Source of the DNA: Halobiforma nitratireducens JCM 10879
Lineage (GTDB): Archaea > Halobacteriota > Halobacteria > Halobacteriales > Natrialbaceae
Direction of reading: 5' to 3'
Assembly (NCBI RefSeq): GCF_000337895.1
Contig: NZ_AOMA01000063.1
Location: 98,275 to 162,274, forward strand
DNA: 64,000 bases
Shown: piece by piece, positions 2,877 through 38,792 of the stretch
How the letters are laid out: each line of letters begins with the position of its first letter
How positions within the stretch are numbered: the stretch's first letter is position 1
Notes under the pieces: model-generated
What the model was told of the DNA's origin: nothing
What the model saw: only the letters and a program-made list of their open reading frames with translations
Databases searched by the model: none
Made by a program: the position numbers and the translations under genes

Positions 2877-3053
2877 ATGGAACTCGATCATCACTGCCCC
2901 GATTGCGGGGAAGAGCGGACGTTCTACCGCGCGGCGAGTACGACTCTGCACCTCGGGGAGAAGATCAAGTGGCACTGCCCGGAGTGTGACTACGGATTCG
3001 TTCGCATCAGCGACAACGACACTGCAGTCGACACGAGCGCCGCGGAAGCCTGA
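2877..3053 (+). CDS. small zinc-ribbon protein (58 aa)
   Basis: A 58-residue protein with two CxxC knuckles, CPDCG (about 7-11) and CPECDYGF (about 34-41), which together could bind one zinc ion as a beta-ribbon. The tail is acidic and disordered. Haloarchaea carry many such one-domain zinc proteins of unknown role, and this one matches the widely conserved kind (DUF7838-like). It is transcribed divergently from pduO. The ATG at 2877 gives the only sensible N-terminus (MELDHHCPDCG). Confidence 0.8.
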   Translation: MELDHHCPDCGEERTFYRAASTTLHLGEKIKWHCPECDYGFVRISDNDTAVDTSAAEA

Positions 3054-3340
3054 GACCCACTGAGCACCGTCGTCTCTGAACGATTGCGGTCGCGGTCGCA
3101 TCTTCGGTTTCACGGGCTCTCGCTCGCCCGAGCCCCGCGTCGACGGCCGACCGTCCGTGTGGGCGTGATTCGACGGCTACCTTCGATTCTCCTCCCTTTC
3201 CCGTTCTTCTCCGGTTTGTCGGCGGCTTCGTCCGGACTGCTCGCTTGGCCGACCGTGACCGTGATCGTGACTCTGACCGTAACCCACTACCGAACACCAA
3301 CACCCTTTGTGCCGGCGTTCCTACCGGGACTCGAGAACCG

Positions 3341-33705: not shown

Positions 33706-33865
33706 ACTCGAGGAGACACGAGCCCCACCCTACCCTCTCCCGGTAGCTCAAACGGCGATTTCACCTCTCCGTCGACTGCTCGGTCGACCAATCGTTCGCC
33801 CGGACTGTCCGTGCTCACGACCGAAGAGACGAACATCTTTCATCGTTGCGAACGGAGTGTCGCGT

Positions 33866-35377
33866 ATGAGCAACCCCACGTTCGACGCCGACGGCATCAC
33901 GCTCGAGCAGGTGCGTGAGTACGTCTGGGAGGTCCCACAAGAAGGAGACATGCGTACCCCCGCGCGGGTACTGGCAAGCGAAGCCTTACTCGAGGAGATC
34001 GCCGACGACAAGACCTTAGAGCAGATCACGAACACGACCCATCTGCCGGGGATCACCAACTACGCGATCTGTATGCCCGACGGCCACCAGGGGTATGGCT
34101 TCCCCGTCGGGGGAGTCGGCGCACTCGACGCCGAAAACGGCTGTATTTCGCCCGGTGCGGTCGGCTACGACATCAACTGCGGTGTCCGGATGATGCGGAC
34201 GAACCTGACCTACGACGACCTGCGGGGCCGCGAGGAGGAACTCGTCGACTCCCTGTTCGCGAACGTCCCGTCGGGGCTGGGTGGGGGCGGCATCGTCGAA
34301 GCCGGCGTCGACACCGTCGACGAGATCCTCGAGCGTGGCGTCGAGTGGGCCGTCGAGAACGGCCACGGCGTCGAGGAAGACCTGCTGCACTGCGAGGATG
34401 AAGGCATCCGGACGGAGGCCGACGCCTCGAAGATCAGCCAGAAAGCGAAAGACCGCGGCAAGAACCAGATCGGGTCGCTGGGCTCGGGCAACCACTTCCT
34501 CGAGGTCCAGCGTGTCACCGACGTCTTCGACGACGAGGTCGGCGACGCCTACGGACTCGAGGAAGACCAGATCGTCGTCCTCATTCACTGTGGCTCCCGC
34601 GGGCTGGGTCACCAGACCTGCAACGACTACCTGCGCAAGATCGAACAGCAACATCAGGGCCTGCTGGACCAGTTGCCGGACAAGGAACTCGCGGCCGCGC
34701 CGGCGGGCTCACAGCTCGCGGAAGACTACTACAAGGCGATGAACGCGGCGATCAACTTCGCGTGGGTCAACCGCCAGCTGATCATGCACCGCACGCGACA
34801 GGTCTTCGAGCGGGTGTTCGATCGCACCTGGGAGGAGATGGAGATGGAATTGCTGTACGACGTGGCCCACAATATCGCGAAGAAGGAGACCCACGAAGTC
34901 GGGGTCGGGCCGGAGGGTCGACCGGTGCGAGACGGCGAAGCCGTCGAGCGAGAAGAGCGGGAACTGTTCGTTCACCGGAAGGGTGCAACTCGAGCCTTCC
35001 CCGCCGGCCACCCCGAGGTGCCCGACGCCTACCGCGACGTCGGGCAGCCGGTCATCATCCCAGGCAGCATGGGTGCCGGCAACTACGTCCTTCGGGGCGG
35101 CGAGAACTCGATGGACCTCACGTTCGGCTCGACGGCCCACGGCGCGGGCCGGCTGATGAGTCGCACCCAGGCGAAAAACGAGTACTGGGGCGGTGACGTC
35201 CAGCAGGAACTCGAAGAGCAAGACCAGATATACGTCAAGGCACAGTCCGGCGCGACGGTCGCCGAGGAGGCACCCGGCGTCTACAAGGACGTCGACGAGG
35301 TCGTCCGTGTTTCGGACGCGCTGGGCATCGGCGACAAGGTCGCACGGACGTTCCCGGTCTGTAACATCAAGGGCTGA
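33866..35377 (+). CDS. rtcB: RtcB-type RNA ligase
   Basis: Joins tRNA exons after intron removal, using GTP and Mn2+, with archease help. The 503-residue protein shows all family marks: MPDGHQGYGFPVGGVGAL, GYDINCGVRMMRT with the metal-binding Cys, GSLGSGNHFLEVQ, LIHCGSRGLGHQ, VIIPGSMGAGNYVLRG and STAHGAGRLMSR, where the His takes the GMP. No intein interrupts it. ATG 33866 is chosen because the homologous chain begins near MSNPTFDADGITLEQVREYVWEVP; the preceding frame is non-coding. The gene is single and on the same strand as archease. Confidence 0.97.
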   Translation: MSNPTFDADGITLEQVREYVWEVPQEGDMRTPARVLASEALLEEIADDKTLEQITNTTHLPGITNYAICMPDGHQGYGFPVGGVGALDAENGCISPGAVGYDINCGVRMMRTNLTYDDLRGREEELVDSLFANVPSGLGGGGIVEAGVDTVDEILERGVEWAVENGHGVEEDLLHCEDEGIRTEADASKISQKAKDRGKNQIGSLGSGNHFLEVQRVTDVFDDEVGDAYGLEEDQIVVLIHCGSRGLGHQTCNDYLRKIEQQHQGLLDQLPDKELAAAPAGSQLAEDYYKAMNAAINFAWVNRQLIMHRTRQVFERVFDRTWEEMEMELLYDVAHNIAKKETHEVGVGPEGRPVRDGEAVEREERELFVHRKGATRAFPAGHPEVPDAYRDVGQPVIIPGSMGAGNYVLRGGENSMDLTFGSTAHGAGRLMSRTQAKNEYWGGDVQQELEEQDQIYVKAQSGATVAEEAPGVYKDVDEVVRVSDALGIGDKVARTFPVCNIKG

Positions 35378-35431
35378 CGAACGCTCGAGGCAGTCTCGGC
35401 TTGGCCGACGGGAGCATCACGGGACACGGGC

Positions 35432-36781
35432 TCACGAGTCGCGAAGCGACTGCCGTGCGATCGTCCGGGCTGTCGAGACGTCGAGTTCGTCGAAGGTGTC
35501 GTCCTCCTCGAGCGTCTCGAGGACCGCTTCGACCGGTTCGGTGAACGTGAACGTGAGGTGGACGCCGCTTTTGAAGCCGCCGCTTGTCCGTTCGCTCTCG
35601 AGGACGCCGTAGGTACCGGCCTTGTTGATGTGGCTGTTGACGGTCTCCTGGGTGTAGACGTCTCGATCGGTTCGCTGGCATATCTCGCGGTACAGTGCGT
35701 AGACCGCCGGACTCGGTGCCGCGCCGTCGTTGACGTCCGCGACGACTGCGGCGGCGTACAGCGAGAGTTTCTTCTGGAGGGTCATTCCACCGACCATCTC
35801 GAGTACGCGGTTCTTGACGACCGAATCGTTGGCCGCGTGGACGTGTTGTTCCGTGACGACTGTCTCCCCGTTTCGGTTCGCGATCTCGCCGGCGTCTCGC
35901 AGCAGGTCGATCGCTCGCCGCGCGTCGCCTTCGTTTTTCGCGCCGTAGGCGGCAACCAGTTCGATGACGCCGGCCTCGAGTGCGCCCTCCTTGAACGCGT
36001 CGCGCCGACGGTTGAGAATCTCGATGAGTTCGTTGGCGTCGTAATCCGAGAAGTGGATGCCGGTCGGGTTGTACGAGCTGTCGGTGCGACTATCGAGGTT
36101 CTCGCGGAACTTGGGGTGGTTGGTGATTACGACCGTCGAGACGAGGGTGTCGACGTGCTGTTCGGCCATCACTCGGCTCAGGCTGTAGAGCAGCCTGGAG
36201 TAGGCGGGCTCGTCCTCGCCGACGCGGCCGGTCAGCGCGTCGATCTCGTCGAGGATGAACACGAGCGCGTCGAAGTGTCGATCGACGATCTCGTAGAGCC
36301 GAACGTACTTCGCGTCGGTTGAGACGCCTTTCCGCGGGATGTCCCACGCGACGCCGGCTTTCTTCGCCGTCTGGTGGCCGAGCTTCCAGACGGCACGATC
36401 CAGCGAGTGAGACTCCATCGTCTTGAAGTTGACCGCGACGAAGTCGAAGTCGATGTCGTTCTGTGTGGCCCGTTCCGCGACCTTCTCGGCGACTGCCTTT
36501 ACGGTGAGACTCTTTCCGGTGCCGCTTGGACCATAGAGGAGGAGGTCCGGCGGCCGTTCGCCGTCGAGGGTGTCACGAAACGCCCGCGCTTCGGCGGCCA
36601 GTTGTTCGTCCCGACCGTAGATCCGGTTGTGATCGACGATCGTGTTGGAATCGACGAGTTGCTTGTTCTCGAAGACCGTCTTCCGTTCGCCATCGAGGAT
36701 GCTGTCGACGATCGATCCGTCGGGGGAGTCCGCCGTCCCGTCGTCGTCCCCTCCTCGAGCGTTAGAGGACTCCCGTTTCAT
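35432..36781 (-). CDS. orc1: Orc1/Cdc6 replication initiator
   Basis: A 449-residue origin recognition ATPase. After a disordered N-terminus come the Walker A GPSGTGKS (84-91), Walker B VFILDEIDAL (about 173-182), sensor 1 (VVITNHPKF), ARRAIDLLRDAGEIA as sensor 2, and a C-terminal winged helix with GTYGVLESERTSGGFKSG. The start ATG at 36781 faces a region with many copies of an ACCGTTGTCGAAATGAAA motif. A weak TATA (GGTATTGTGG, minus strand, about 36803-36812) lies between the ATG and the first copy, so the protein probably controls itself. Confidence 0.95.
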   Translation of the reverse strand: MKRESSNARGGDDDGTADSPDGSIVDSILDGERKTVFENKQLVDSNTIVDHNRIYGRDEQLAAEARAFRDTLDGERPPDLLLYGPSGTGKSLTVKAVAEKVAERATQNDIDFDFVAVNFKTMESHSLDRAVWKLGHQTAKKAGVAWDIPRKGVSTDAKYVRLYEIVDRHFDALVFILDEIDALTGRVGEDEPAYSRLLYSLSRVMAEQHVDTLVSTVVITNHPKFRENLDSRTDSSYNPTGIHFSDYDANELIEILNRRRDAFKEGALEAGVIELVAAYGAKNEGDARRAIDLLRDAGEIANRNGETVVTEQHVHAANDSVVKNRVLEMVGGMTLQKKLSLYAAAVVADVNDGAAPSPAVYALYREICQRTDRDVYTQETVNSHINKAGTYGVLESERTSGGFKSGVHLTFTFTEPVEAVLETLEEDDTFDELDVSTARTIARQSLRDS

Positions 36782-37444
36782 TGTCGGCACTGGCCGCCGG
36801 GCCACAATACCTCTTTCGAAATGAAGGAACCGCGGTCGAAATGAAGGCTCCGTGCTCGAAATGAACCGAGACGGCCGCCGACCCGCCGACGACGAATCGA
36901 GAGACCGTTGTCGAAATGAAACCCGGATGGACCGCCGTCGGGGGAAGCGGGTTCCCGTCTCGGACGCGACGCTCGAGATCGAGCGGGACCGCCGTCGAAA
37001 TGAGGGCACCGTTAGCGAAATGAAATCGCCGGTGTCGAAACAGCGGGTGCGGTGGAGCCGACGAGTGTCTGGTAGCAACGAGAACAGGAGTCCCACACCG
37101 TTGTCGAAATGAAACGGGAAAATGGAGGCCCGGCAACCATGGAGGGGACCGTTATCGAAATGAAACTCGCTCTTGTCGAGTCAGATCGATATTATTCGGG
37201 CCTTACCGCTCATATACCTGCCTATGCCGGAAACAGCGCACAGATTTCATTTCGACAACGGTGTGAGAGGGTACTCACTCTAGTTCGTCTTTCGAGGGAT
37301 TTCATTTCGAATGCAGTGTGAGCGACCTCGGTAGAAGACCTAGAAAAGCAACCCGAGATCGTACAGCCACGTCCCGTCTCGGCTGGGCTCGACTGGACTC
37401 GGCCAACTCGACTGATCGGGCCCAAACCGTCGCACGATATCCAC
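36782..37444. other. candidate replication origin beside orc1
   Basis: This 663-base non-coding region starts at the orc1 ATG. It holds nine plus-strand and two minus-strand copies of a motif with consensus ACCGTTGTCGAAATGAAA. Core TCGAAATGAA-like positions: 36816, 36836, 36856, 36911, 36995, 37015, 37035 (degenerate), 37104, 37155 (plus) and 37246, 37301 (minus). The opposing arrays flank an AT-rich patch (about 37182-37230, with GATATTATT and CATATACC), a fitting unwinding element. The layout matches haloarchaeal origins; the motif lacks the G-string and the TTCCA...TGGAAAC core of the common haloarchaeal ORB. Confidence 0.75.
36808..37310. repeat. Orc1-binding-like motif array (11 copies)
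   Basis: Copies come in two phased triplets with cores exactly 20 bases apart (36816/36836/36856 and 36995/37015/37035), plus scattered copies at 36911, 37104 and 37155 and inverted ones at 37246-37255 and 37301-37310. The best copies (36903-36922, 37095-37115, 37147-37166 and 37244-37267 on the other strand) share ACCGTTGTCGAAATGAAA. Several lie inside the orc1 promoter zone. Confidence 0.85.
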
Positions 37445-37669
37445 TCACTTCAGTCGAAACGGGTTCTCGTCGTCTCCCTCTCCGTTACTCTCGTCTCCCT
37501 CGTCAGTCTCGTACGGCTTCCGGGCCGTTATCGTCACCGTCGCCTCCGGATCGTCCTCGTCGGCCCACGGGCTATCGTAGGCCGATATCTCGAGGTCGGT
37601 AACATCCCAGCCTTCGTCTTCGATGAGTTCGACCAACTGCCGCTGGTCCGCGAGCATTTCCTCGTCCAT
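37445..37669 (-). CDS. conserved-looking small acidic protein, unknown function
   Basis: A 74-residue acidic protein (MDEEMLADQRQLVELIEDEGWDVTDLEIS, then DPEATVTITARKPYE and a Glu/Asp tail ending NPFRLK). The alternating strands suggest a small alpha-beta fold; no known family is recognised. A longer version starting at a GTG at 37711 is possible and would sit 32 bases from a TTAAC TATA-like element at 37744-37749. It converges with the origin region and is divergent from moaA. Confidence 0.65.
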   Translation of the reverse strand: MDEEMLADQRQLVELIEDEGWDVTDLEISAYDSPWADEDDPEATVTITARKPYETDEGDESNGEGDDENPFRLK

Positions 37670-37772
37670 ATCCGGCGTTGGCCGTCCGGCGGGGTAGCTG
37701 TTGTGCCTCACTCACGGCTCGCGAGAACTAGAAACCAAAAGCGGTTAACGCTCGCCGGAAATTGCCGGCGAA

Positions 37773-37802: not shown

Positions 37803-38792
37803 ATGCTCACCGACGAGTTCGGGCGCGAGGTTACAGGGGTCCGCGTCTCTCTTACGGACCGGTGTAACTTCGACTGTATCTACTGTCACAACGAGGGGCT
37901 CGGGGACACGCGGGGGCCGATGGACCCACAGGACGACGAGATGGGGACCGACGGCGTCGTCCGCTTTCTCGAGGTCGCAGCCGAGTTCGGCGTCGACGCC
38001 GTCAAGTTCACCGGCGGAGAACCGATGCTGCGCCAGGACCTAGAGGAGATCATCAGGCGTACGCCGGACGACCTCGAGACCTCGCTGACGACCAACGGAA
38101 CCTTTCTCCCTGGCCGCGCCGACGCCCTGGTCGACGCCGGCCTCGAGCGGGTCAACGTCTCGCAGGATGCGCTCGATCCCGACGACTTCGCGGCGGTCAC
38201 GAAAAGCGGTGCCTACGAGAAGGTCCTCGAGGGTGTCGACGCTGCACTCGCGGCCGGCCTGGACCCGGTCAAACTCAATATGGTCGTCTTCGAGCACACC
38301 GCGGGGTACGTCCCCGAGATGGTCGATCACGTCGCAGAAAACGAGGGACTTCAGCTCCAGTTGATCCAGTACATGCCCGAGCTCACCGGCCGCCCGGAGT
38401 GGAATATCGACATCCAGCGCGTCCACGACTGGCTCGCCGACCAGGCCGCGGAGATCGAACACCGCGAGATGCACGACCGGAAGCGCTACTGGGTCGAGAG
38501 CGACGACGGCGAAGGTCGGGGGATGGTGGAGATCGTCGACCCGGTCGAGAACCCTACCTTCTGTGCGAACTGCCACCGCGTGCGCGTCACGCACGAGGGG
38601 CATCTGAAAGGCTGTCTCAACCGCAACGACGATCTCCGATCGATGGGCGAGATGACCAAACCCGAAATCCGCGAGGCGTTCCGCGAGACCGTCGAGAACC
38701 GGGTTCCGTACTACGGCGAGTACATGATCGAAAACGGCGACGGCGAGTGGGAACTCAACGAGAAATACATCGAGGATTCGATCCGCGCGTGA
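37803..38792 (+). CDS. moaA: GTP 3',8-cyclase (molybdenum cofactor step 1)
   Basis: Radical-SAM enzyme that turns GTP into 3',8-cyclo-GTP, the first step of molybdopterin synthesis. The 329-residue protein has the cluster site CNFDCIYC (CxxxCxxC, about 21-28), the GGEP glycine-rich SAM motif (about 71-74) and, near the C-terminus, CANCHR with a later CLNRN that bind the second 4Fe-4S cluster. Start ATG 37803 fits family length and the leaderless promoter. The sequence ends shortly after the TGA; a membrane-protein gene runs convergently with only three bases in between. Confidence 0.96.

Follow-up and report, generated by a model that had tools for sequence, protein, structure and literature searches.

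A putative orc1-linked origin cassette with ORB-like boxes of short G-string in Halobiforma nitratireducens

Introduction

The closest described systems are the haloarchaeal origins adjacent to orc/cdc6 genes (Wu et al. 2012, PMC3528665). Such origins combine an orc gene with inverted intergenic ORBs and a gap of lower GC content, the ORB tracks the Orc family, and the distribution of the origins is patchy and apparently mobile. As far as the accessible text of PMC3528665 and PMC4595724 goes, published prediction of haloarchaeal origins required a G-string of the repeats. The G-string is essential at oriC1 of Haloarcula hispanica (PMC3936714), and from the same paper we infer that the G end of haloarchaeal oriC1 boxes is directed outward. 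A single origin-associated Cdc6 was counted by Wu et al. on plasmid pHmuk01 of Halomicrobium mukohataei (PMC3528665).

Two other systems bear on the function of boxes near an orc gene. The oriC2-cdc6E origin of Haloarcula hispanica carries ORBs in excess of those needed for melting, and the surplus is proposed to bind the initiator and thereby restrain initiation (PMC3936714). Orc1-2 of Saccharolobus islandicus has the Orc1 fold and acts at promoters, including its own, but is a non-initiator with sites in several promoters and no origin-like inverted array (PMC9738581). Archaeal Orc1 proteins contact DNA through two modules, the initiator-specific motif and the recognition helix, and in crenarchaeal initiators winged-helix arginines contact the ORB; Orc1-2 has no such arginines at the initiator positions (PMC9738581).

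Here we analyse an orc1 gene and the repeats next to it in a 64,000-nucleotide stretch of the Halobiforma nitratireducens JCM 10879 genome (hereafter the window). The locus resembles the origins of PMC3528665 in all the properties listed above except that the G-string of its boxes is shortened to about GG and that its orc-side array is dense, often advances in 20-bp steps and enters the promoter. We consider it probable that the locus is a cognate origin cassette bound by its own Orc.

Results

Repeats upstream of the orc1 gene

The intergenic space at 36782-37444 extends exactly from the orc1 ATG (36781) to the stop of an ORF for an 88-aa protein (37445). An earlier note on this DNA had placed a likely origin directly before orc1, and the region indeed ends exactly at the orc1 start codon. 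The features discussed are the following, the numbered ORB copies being candidate boxes.

33860-35377, plus strand: rtcB RNA ligase gene (Pfam RtcB, 542 bits), left boundary of the proposed cassette
35432-36781, minus strand: orc1/cdc6 initiator gene, 449 aa (TIGR02928, Pfam Cdc6_lid and Cdc6_C)
36782-37444, no strand: candidate origin with ORB-like boxes, central gap and inverted distal boxes; array conserved in all orthologs
36804-36809, minus strand: TATTGT, a TATA-like element some 25 nt before the orc ATG and adjoining the G end of the first ORB
36807-36826, minus strand: ORB copy 1, promoter-proximal, canonical orientation TTCATTTCGAAAGAGGTATT
36827-36846, minus strand: ORB copy 2, exactly 20 bp from copy 1
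36847-36866, minus strand: ORB copy 3, exactly 20 bp from copy 2
36902-36921, minus strand: ORB copy 4
36986-37005, minus strand: ORB copy 5, one mismatch
37006-37025, minus strand: ORB copy 6, one mismatch, 20 bp from copy 5
37029-37046, minus strand: degenerate copy CCGGTGTCGAAACAGCGG, not matched at one mismatch, presumably the eleventh copy of the earlier note
37092-37114, minus strand: ORB copy 7, TTTCATTTCGACAACGGTGTGGGA, 96% complementary to copy 9 over 24 nt
37146-37165, minus strand: ORB copy 8, inner box of the orc-side group
37166-37244, no strand: central gap, mildly AT-rich (51% GC versus 64%), candidate duplex-unwinding element
37245-37268, plus strand: ORB copy 9, inner inverted box, TTTCATTTCGACAACGGTGTGAGA
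37300-37321, plus strand: ORB copy 10, outer inverted box, TTTCATTTCGAATGCAGTGTGAG
37445-37711, minus strand: gene for a conserved 88-aa protein, right boundary of the proposed cassette, found beside moaA also in cassette-free genomes
37803-38792, plus strand: moaA, GTP 3',8-cyclase (TIGR02668, 372 bits)

Allowing up to one mismatch, ten copies of TCGAAATGAA were found at 36816-37310, eight forward (36816, 36836, 36856, 36911, 36995, 37015, 37104 and 37155) and two reverse (37246 and 37301), and the sequence matched only once more in the 64 kb outside the array. Shuffling gave an expectation of 2.8 matches (sd 1.7), and none of the 100 shuffles reached 11. The assembly (3.69 Mb in 205 contigs, 85% complete) was scanned with CCGNNNTCGAAATGAA: six of the seven exact matches, and 10 of the 19 with at most one mismatch, fell within the half kilobase of the array. 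The remaining near matches were scattered single sites, and this genome-wide scan revealed no second strong array. The eleven copies in two opposing groups that had been reported are thus repeats beyond chance, ten of them clear and the eleventh (37029-37046) degenerate, and the groups are real but unbalanced (eight versus two). A literature search for the letters of TCGAAATGAA listed no match that has archaeal origins as its subject.

The box as an altered ORB

The box had previously been read as ACCGTTGTCGAAATGAAA, with neither the G-string nor the usual ORB core. We prefer the opposite strand, TTTCATTTCGANNACGGTGTGAG, as the canonical orientation, because its G end is then directed away from the gap, as is that of the oriC1 boxes of the same genome, and because it aligns without gaps with boxes of related Orcs, namely AGAACAAATCGATAGGGGTGTG of the sister clade and TTTCATYTCGCACACGGGGTGTGGGGG of pHmuk01. 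The same holds for TTACACTTCGATGACGGGGGGTG (locus L024) and CTTACAACTCGAAAACGGGGGGTGTGGG (locus L030). In the register of the G-string, the longest G run was 1-3 in all ten window copies, corresponding to about two Gs. Runs of at least four Gs were found in none of these ten copies, in 28% of 264 ortholog copies, in 63% of 139 sister-clade copies and in five of the seven pHmuk01 copies. As judged from these alignments, the box is an altered form of known origin boxes, with an apparently eroded G-string in the same register. The former description therefore holds insofar as GGGG is missing from all ten copies, but it was based on the reverse strand of a box that aligns ungapped with GGGG boxes. 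With a G-string of about GG, the G-string filters given in the accessible text of PMC3528665 and PMC4595724 would tend to miss this clade.

Nor is the core unfamiliar, as had been claimed, in the sense that an ORB of the strain's own oriC1, CTCCACTCGAAATGAGGGGG, contains the nine letters TCGAAATGA that are common to the window motif. Alignment to this ORB in the orientation of the earlier note, based on the same nine letters, was considered and not preferred. The box CTCCACTCGAAATGAGGGGG is a third ORB-like box upstream of the oriC1 orc (L011, 1304-1325) and is adjoined by a full G-string. An intein had been suspected in the Orc of this oriC1 on the basis of a split match; the translation shows an acidic low-complexity insert.

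Central gap and spacing of the boxes

The 81-bp gap (37165-37245) contains 50.6% GC versus 64.4% for the window, which places it at about the lowest 2% of 80-mers, and the lowest-GC 40-mer of the region (37.5%) is found at 37157. The AT-rich patch noticed before is therefore present but modest. Across orthologs the GC content of the gap ranges from 36 to 62% (36-41% in Halorubrum, about 60% in Natronococcus). Most orthologs have 89-92 bp between the inner boxes on either side of the gap; in Haloferax and Haloarcula this distance is shorter by about one helical turn (80-82 bp). On the orc side, neighbouring boxes are spaced by exactly 20 bp in 83, and by 40 bp in 18, of the 187 distances measured across orthologs. 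All orthologs for which enough upstream sequence is available keep one to three far-side boxes, inverted with respect to the orc-side boxes. Inverted repeats flanking a gap beside an orc gene, an arrangement expected of archaeal orc-adjacent origins, are thus found here.

The Orc1 protein and its promoter

The orc1 product contains an AAA+ ATPase domain with Walker A (GPSGTGKS) and Walker B (VFILDEID) motifs, a Cdc6 lid and a C-terminal winged helix. Its domains and its TIGR02928 score (344 bits versus a cut-off of 181) assign it to the Orc1/Cdc6 family, and PF22703 and PF09079 likewise score above cut-off. Structural relatives are 2qby_A and 2v1u_A. Aligned to 2qby_A, the recognition helix reads TQETVNSHINKAG versus TQRRVSDIINELD, and the arginine pair with which the winged helix of crenarchaeal initiators contacts the ORB is absent. 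Related haloarchaeal Orcs with G-string ORBs lack this pair as well, and hence it cannot tell initiators from regulators in the haloarchaeal group.

In nearly all aligned orthologs a TATT(A/G)CAG-like element adjoins the first box. Promoter-proximal boxes that are often 20 bp apart and abut a TATA-like box suggest autoregulation, as Orc bound at the first box should compete with transcription initiation. The main rival of the origin cassette takes this further: the array would be mainly an operator, and the Orc a non-initiator transcription regulator like Saccharolobus Orc1-2, repressing its own gene and perhaps others. We regard this as unlikely. It would account for the three 20-bp-spaced boxes that abut the orc TATA-like box here and in most orthologs, for the missing winged-helix arginines, which this Orc has in common with Orc1-2 (PMC9738581), and, in other genomes, for two- or three-copy arrays that lack inverted partners and stand alone close to integrase or resolvase genes. 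An operator needs neither inverted distal boxes 450-650 bp upstream nor a gap of fixed length, however, and both are kept in the orthologs with enough sequence. Furthermore, the dispersed promoter sites of an Orc1-2-type regulator are not apparent from the genome-wide scan, which gave no second strong array, and the only Orc match on pHmuk01 is among the relatives whose residues at the arginine positions are similarly non-arginine.

Linkage of orc and array across haloarchaea

A search of the genome collection for relatives of the Orc yielded 51 loci, 26 orthologs and 25 others. The array was present upstream of orc in each of the 26 named orthologs, which are 75-96% identical, represent at least ten genera and come from Haloterrigena, Natronorubrum, Natrinema, Natronococcus, Haloferax, Natrialba, Halorubrum, Haloarcula, Haloquadratum and Halorientalis among others, and in none of the 25 other relatives (24 at 43-45% identity and one fragment truncated by a contig end, which leaves no upstream sequence to inspect). 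Of 392 genomes sampled evenly across the order, 29, belonging to 14 of the 95 genera and to three families, contained orc (E<=1e-150), in every case with the array upstream. A strict 20-bp pair, sought independently of orc, was present in 24 of these 29 genomes versus 8 of the 363 orc-negative ones (Fisher p about 1e-26). Because many of the sampled genomes are related, these counts overstate the number of independent events, and it is safer to say that orc and array are present in three families, beside different neighbouring genes.

The search of other genomes that the earlier note had proposed thus shows that the motif recurs with orthologous orc genes, and this linkage, together with inverted boxes on both sides of a gap whose length is fixed, lends comparative support to its view that the region is a likely origin. 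Chance or low-complexity repeats unconnected to the orc gene have a negligible probability: they could invoke only how common TCGA generally is in high-GC DNA, and are contradicted by the shuffles, the concentration of matches within the genome and the orc-array linkage, the last of which refutes them.

A more distant Orc (60% identity; L128, genome G383) has a variant array of the same layout. On the reverse strand of this locus (600-1520), four boxes in 49-bp tandem units lie beyond a very AT-rich gap, each followed by a GGGGTAGGG-like run.

Specificity of initiator and box

Throughout the clade the region of the initiator-specific motif, whose extent was placed from the alignment, reads VNFKTMESHTLDRAVWKLG and the recognition helix YTQETVNSHINKAGTYG, both nearly invariant; the sister clade differs in both modules (MNCQNVGTLGAAVYELA and YHQETYVNKMKELTTYS). 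This fits the proposal that Orc1 and its array form a private specificity pair, as do the motif common to all orthologs, the other motifs carried by relatives with other DNA-contact residues, and the apparent gain and loss of Orc and array together. The pair may be less exclusive than had been suggested, since pHmuk01-type boxes contain the same TTTCATYTCG half and could allow cross-recognition.

The Orc of pHmuk01 is 46.6% identical to that of the window and is the only Orc match on this plasmid. Its origin resembles the window locus in the ungapped match of TTTCATYTCGCACACGGGGTGTGGGGG, in having several orc-side boxes and one inverted far box, and in a promoter-proximal box near -57; it differs in its full G-string of 4-5 Gs, in its spacing and in the recognition helix of its Orc (SRDSYLRYM versus TQETVNSHI). 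A one-to-one code between the recognition helix and the TTTCAT half was dropped, since pHmuk01 has the same half-site and a different helix.

Borders, apparent mobility and decay of the proposed cassette

The order rtcB, orc with array, 88-aa gene and moaA is found in the window and in at least six other genomes. Cassette-free relatives keep rtcB, the 88-aa gene and moaA together, and in one of them (G012, L135) rtcB is separated from the 88-aa gene by about 100-150 bp that contain nothing else. In genome G164 orc is located 48 kb away, and in Halorubrum sp. PV6 orc and array reside on the 300-kb plasmid pHrrPV6, alongside two further Orcs; no plasmid with a member of this clade as its only Orc was found. 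The best reading is that 35378-37444 constitutes a portable replicator-initiator cassette of about 2 kb, whose gain or loss between rtcB and the 88-aa gene would involve the whole unit. A DNA-level search of plasmids, with the array or an orphan array as query, returned nothing, and no relative of the Orc was found in phage records. A scan of IMG/VR for the paired motif gave one contig only, which encodes bacterial-phage-like proteins and was judged a chance match. On plasmid pCBA1229 (L218, about 1000-2950) a TnpB-family gene lies between the array and an unannotated Orc frame, and this copy may be disrupted.

Eight genomes carry similar arrays without an intact cognate orc. In G332 (L197, 5919-6415) the array directly precedes all that is left of the cognate Orc, its last 41 residues (78% identical); this would be an origin that has lost its initiator gene by deletion. 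The orc ortholog of G352 (C7:652-5229) is broken into three, and about 3.2 kb of inserted or rearranged DNA separates the first piece from the second. G158 contains a complete two-sided array (L191, 7841-8177) with no orc in the surrounding stretch of 16 kb, and G149 a one-sided array of six boxes. Stand-alone arrays of two or three boxes, with neither inverted partner nor orc, are present in G384, G352, G085, G207 and G358.

The neighbours of the G158 array are PIN-domain and TrmB-type genes. The stand-alone arrays (L192, 6372-6421; L193, 6531-6580; L198, 6696-6745; L196, 7111-7170; L194, 5548-5577) advance mostly in 20-bp steps, and several are near integrase or resolvase genes or in stretches resembling those that are. 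The DNA surrounding the array is 71-82% identical, over 110-287 bp, among L192, L193 and L198, and one flank is common to L196 and L198.

A sub-case of the cassette, which concerns its activity and whose probability overlaps with that of the cassette itself, is a competent but dormant origin or one that is being lost, that is, a selfish or backup cassette that is rarely fired. We give this somewhat less than an even chance. Its patchy distribution (14 of 95 genera), with presence and absence at the same site within a family, is consistent with it, as are the decayed copies of G332, with only the last 41 residues of orc, and of G352, with a broken orc. Dormant cdc6-adjacent origins are documented in Haloferax mediterranei (PMC4595724). 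There is also no skew signal: cumulative GC, AT, RY and MK skews over 400 kb around the locus of a relative (G001) showed no clear switch, nor did GC and RY skews of pHrrPV6 at the orthologous locus. On the other hand, the window gene is intact, two other species of the genus have orthologs with which it shares 96% identity, and both DNA-contact modules are strictly conserved across the clade, which makes recent selection for binding likely.

Discussion

In the favoured origin cassette, Orc1 would bind the boxes as an ORB in the canonical orientation TTTCATTTCGANNACGGTGTGAG, G end away from the unwinding gap. The inverted boxes flanking the gap (37146-37165 and 37245-37268, plus 37092-37114 and 37300-37321) would set up melting and MCM loading, and through the 20-bp-spaced boxes that enter the orc promoter (36807-36866) Orc1 would switch itself off or be titrated. 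The parts of this scheme that we infer are binding, melting, autoregulation and use of the origin in this strain. Against it stand the only mildly AT-rich gap, the short G-string, the missing crenarchaeal arginine pair, the lack of a clear skew switch in G001 and pHrrPV6, the failure to find a plasmid with this clade as sole Orc, and the eight genomes whose arrays lack an intact cognate orc. A bolder and rather improbable extension is that the clade recognises its origins largely without G-string contact, specificity having shifted to the TTTCATTTCG half, that the cassette moves between chromosome and plasmid as a unit, and that the stand-alone arrays beside recombinase genes are pieces through which integrative elements borrow or titrate such initiators in trans.

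Since surveys kept only G-string repeats, they could have tallied an entire clade with orc-linked origins as origin-less orc genes. The family offers a natural series of initiators and boxes in which the G-string is present, partly eroded or absent, a series suited to testing whether an Orc can trade G-string contact for base-specific contacts in high salt. If functional, the small cassette could also serve as an orthogonal replicon for haloarchaeal vectors.

The surplus of boxes is reminiscent of Haloarcula hispanica oriC2-cdc6E (PMC3936714), where the extra cluster lies downstream of cdc6E, whereas the surplus boxes of the window lie between the gap and the orc promoter. Plasmid unnamed3 of Haloarcula marina has eight sister-type boxes in exact 47-bp steps downstream of its Orc gene (L217, about 2925-3270), a cluster that resembles the proposed titrating cluster of oriC2. 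Finally, on a 4.4-kb contig (L012, G000:C156) the words TTTCAATCCC and TTCTCCTGCT are repeated ten-fold upstream of an Orc-like gene; these repeats are possibly a CRISPR array.
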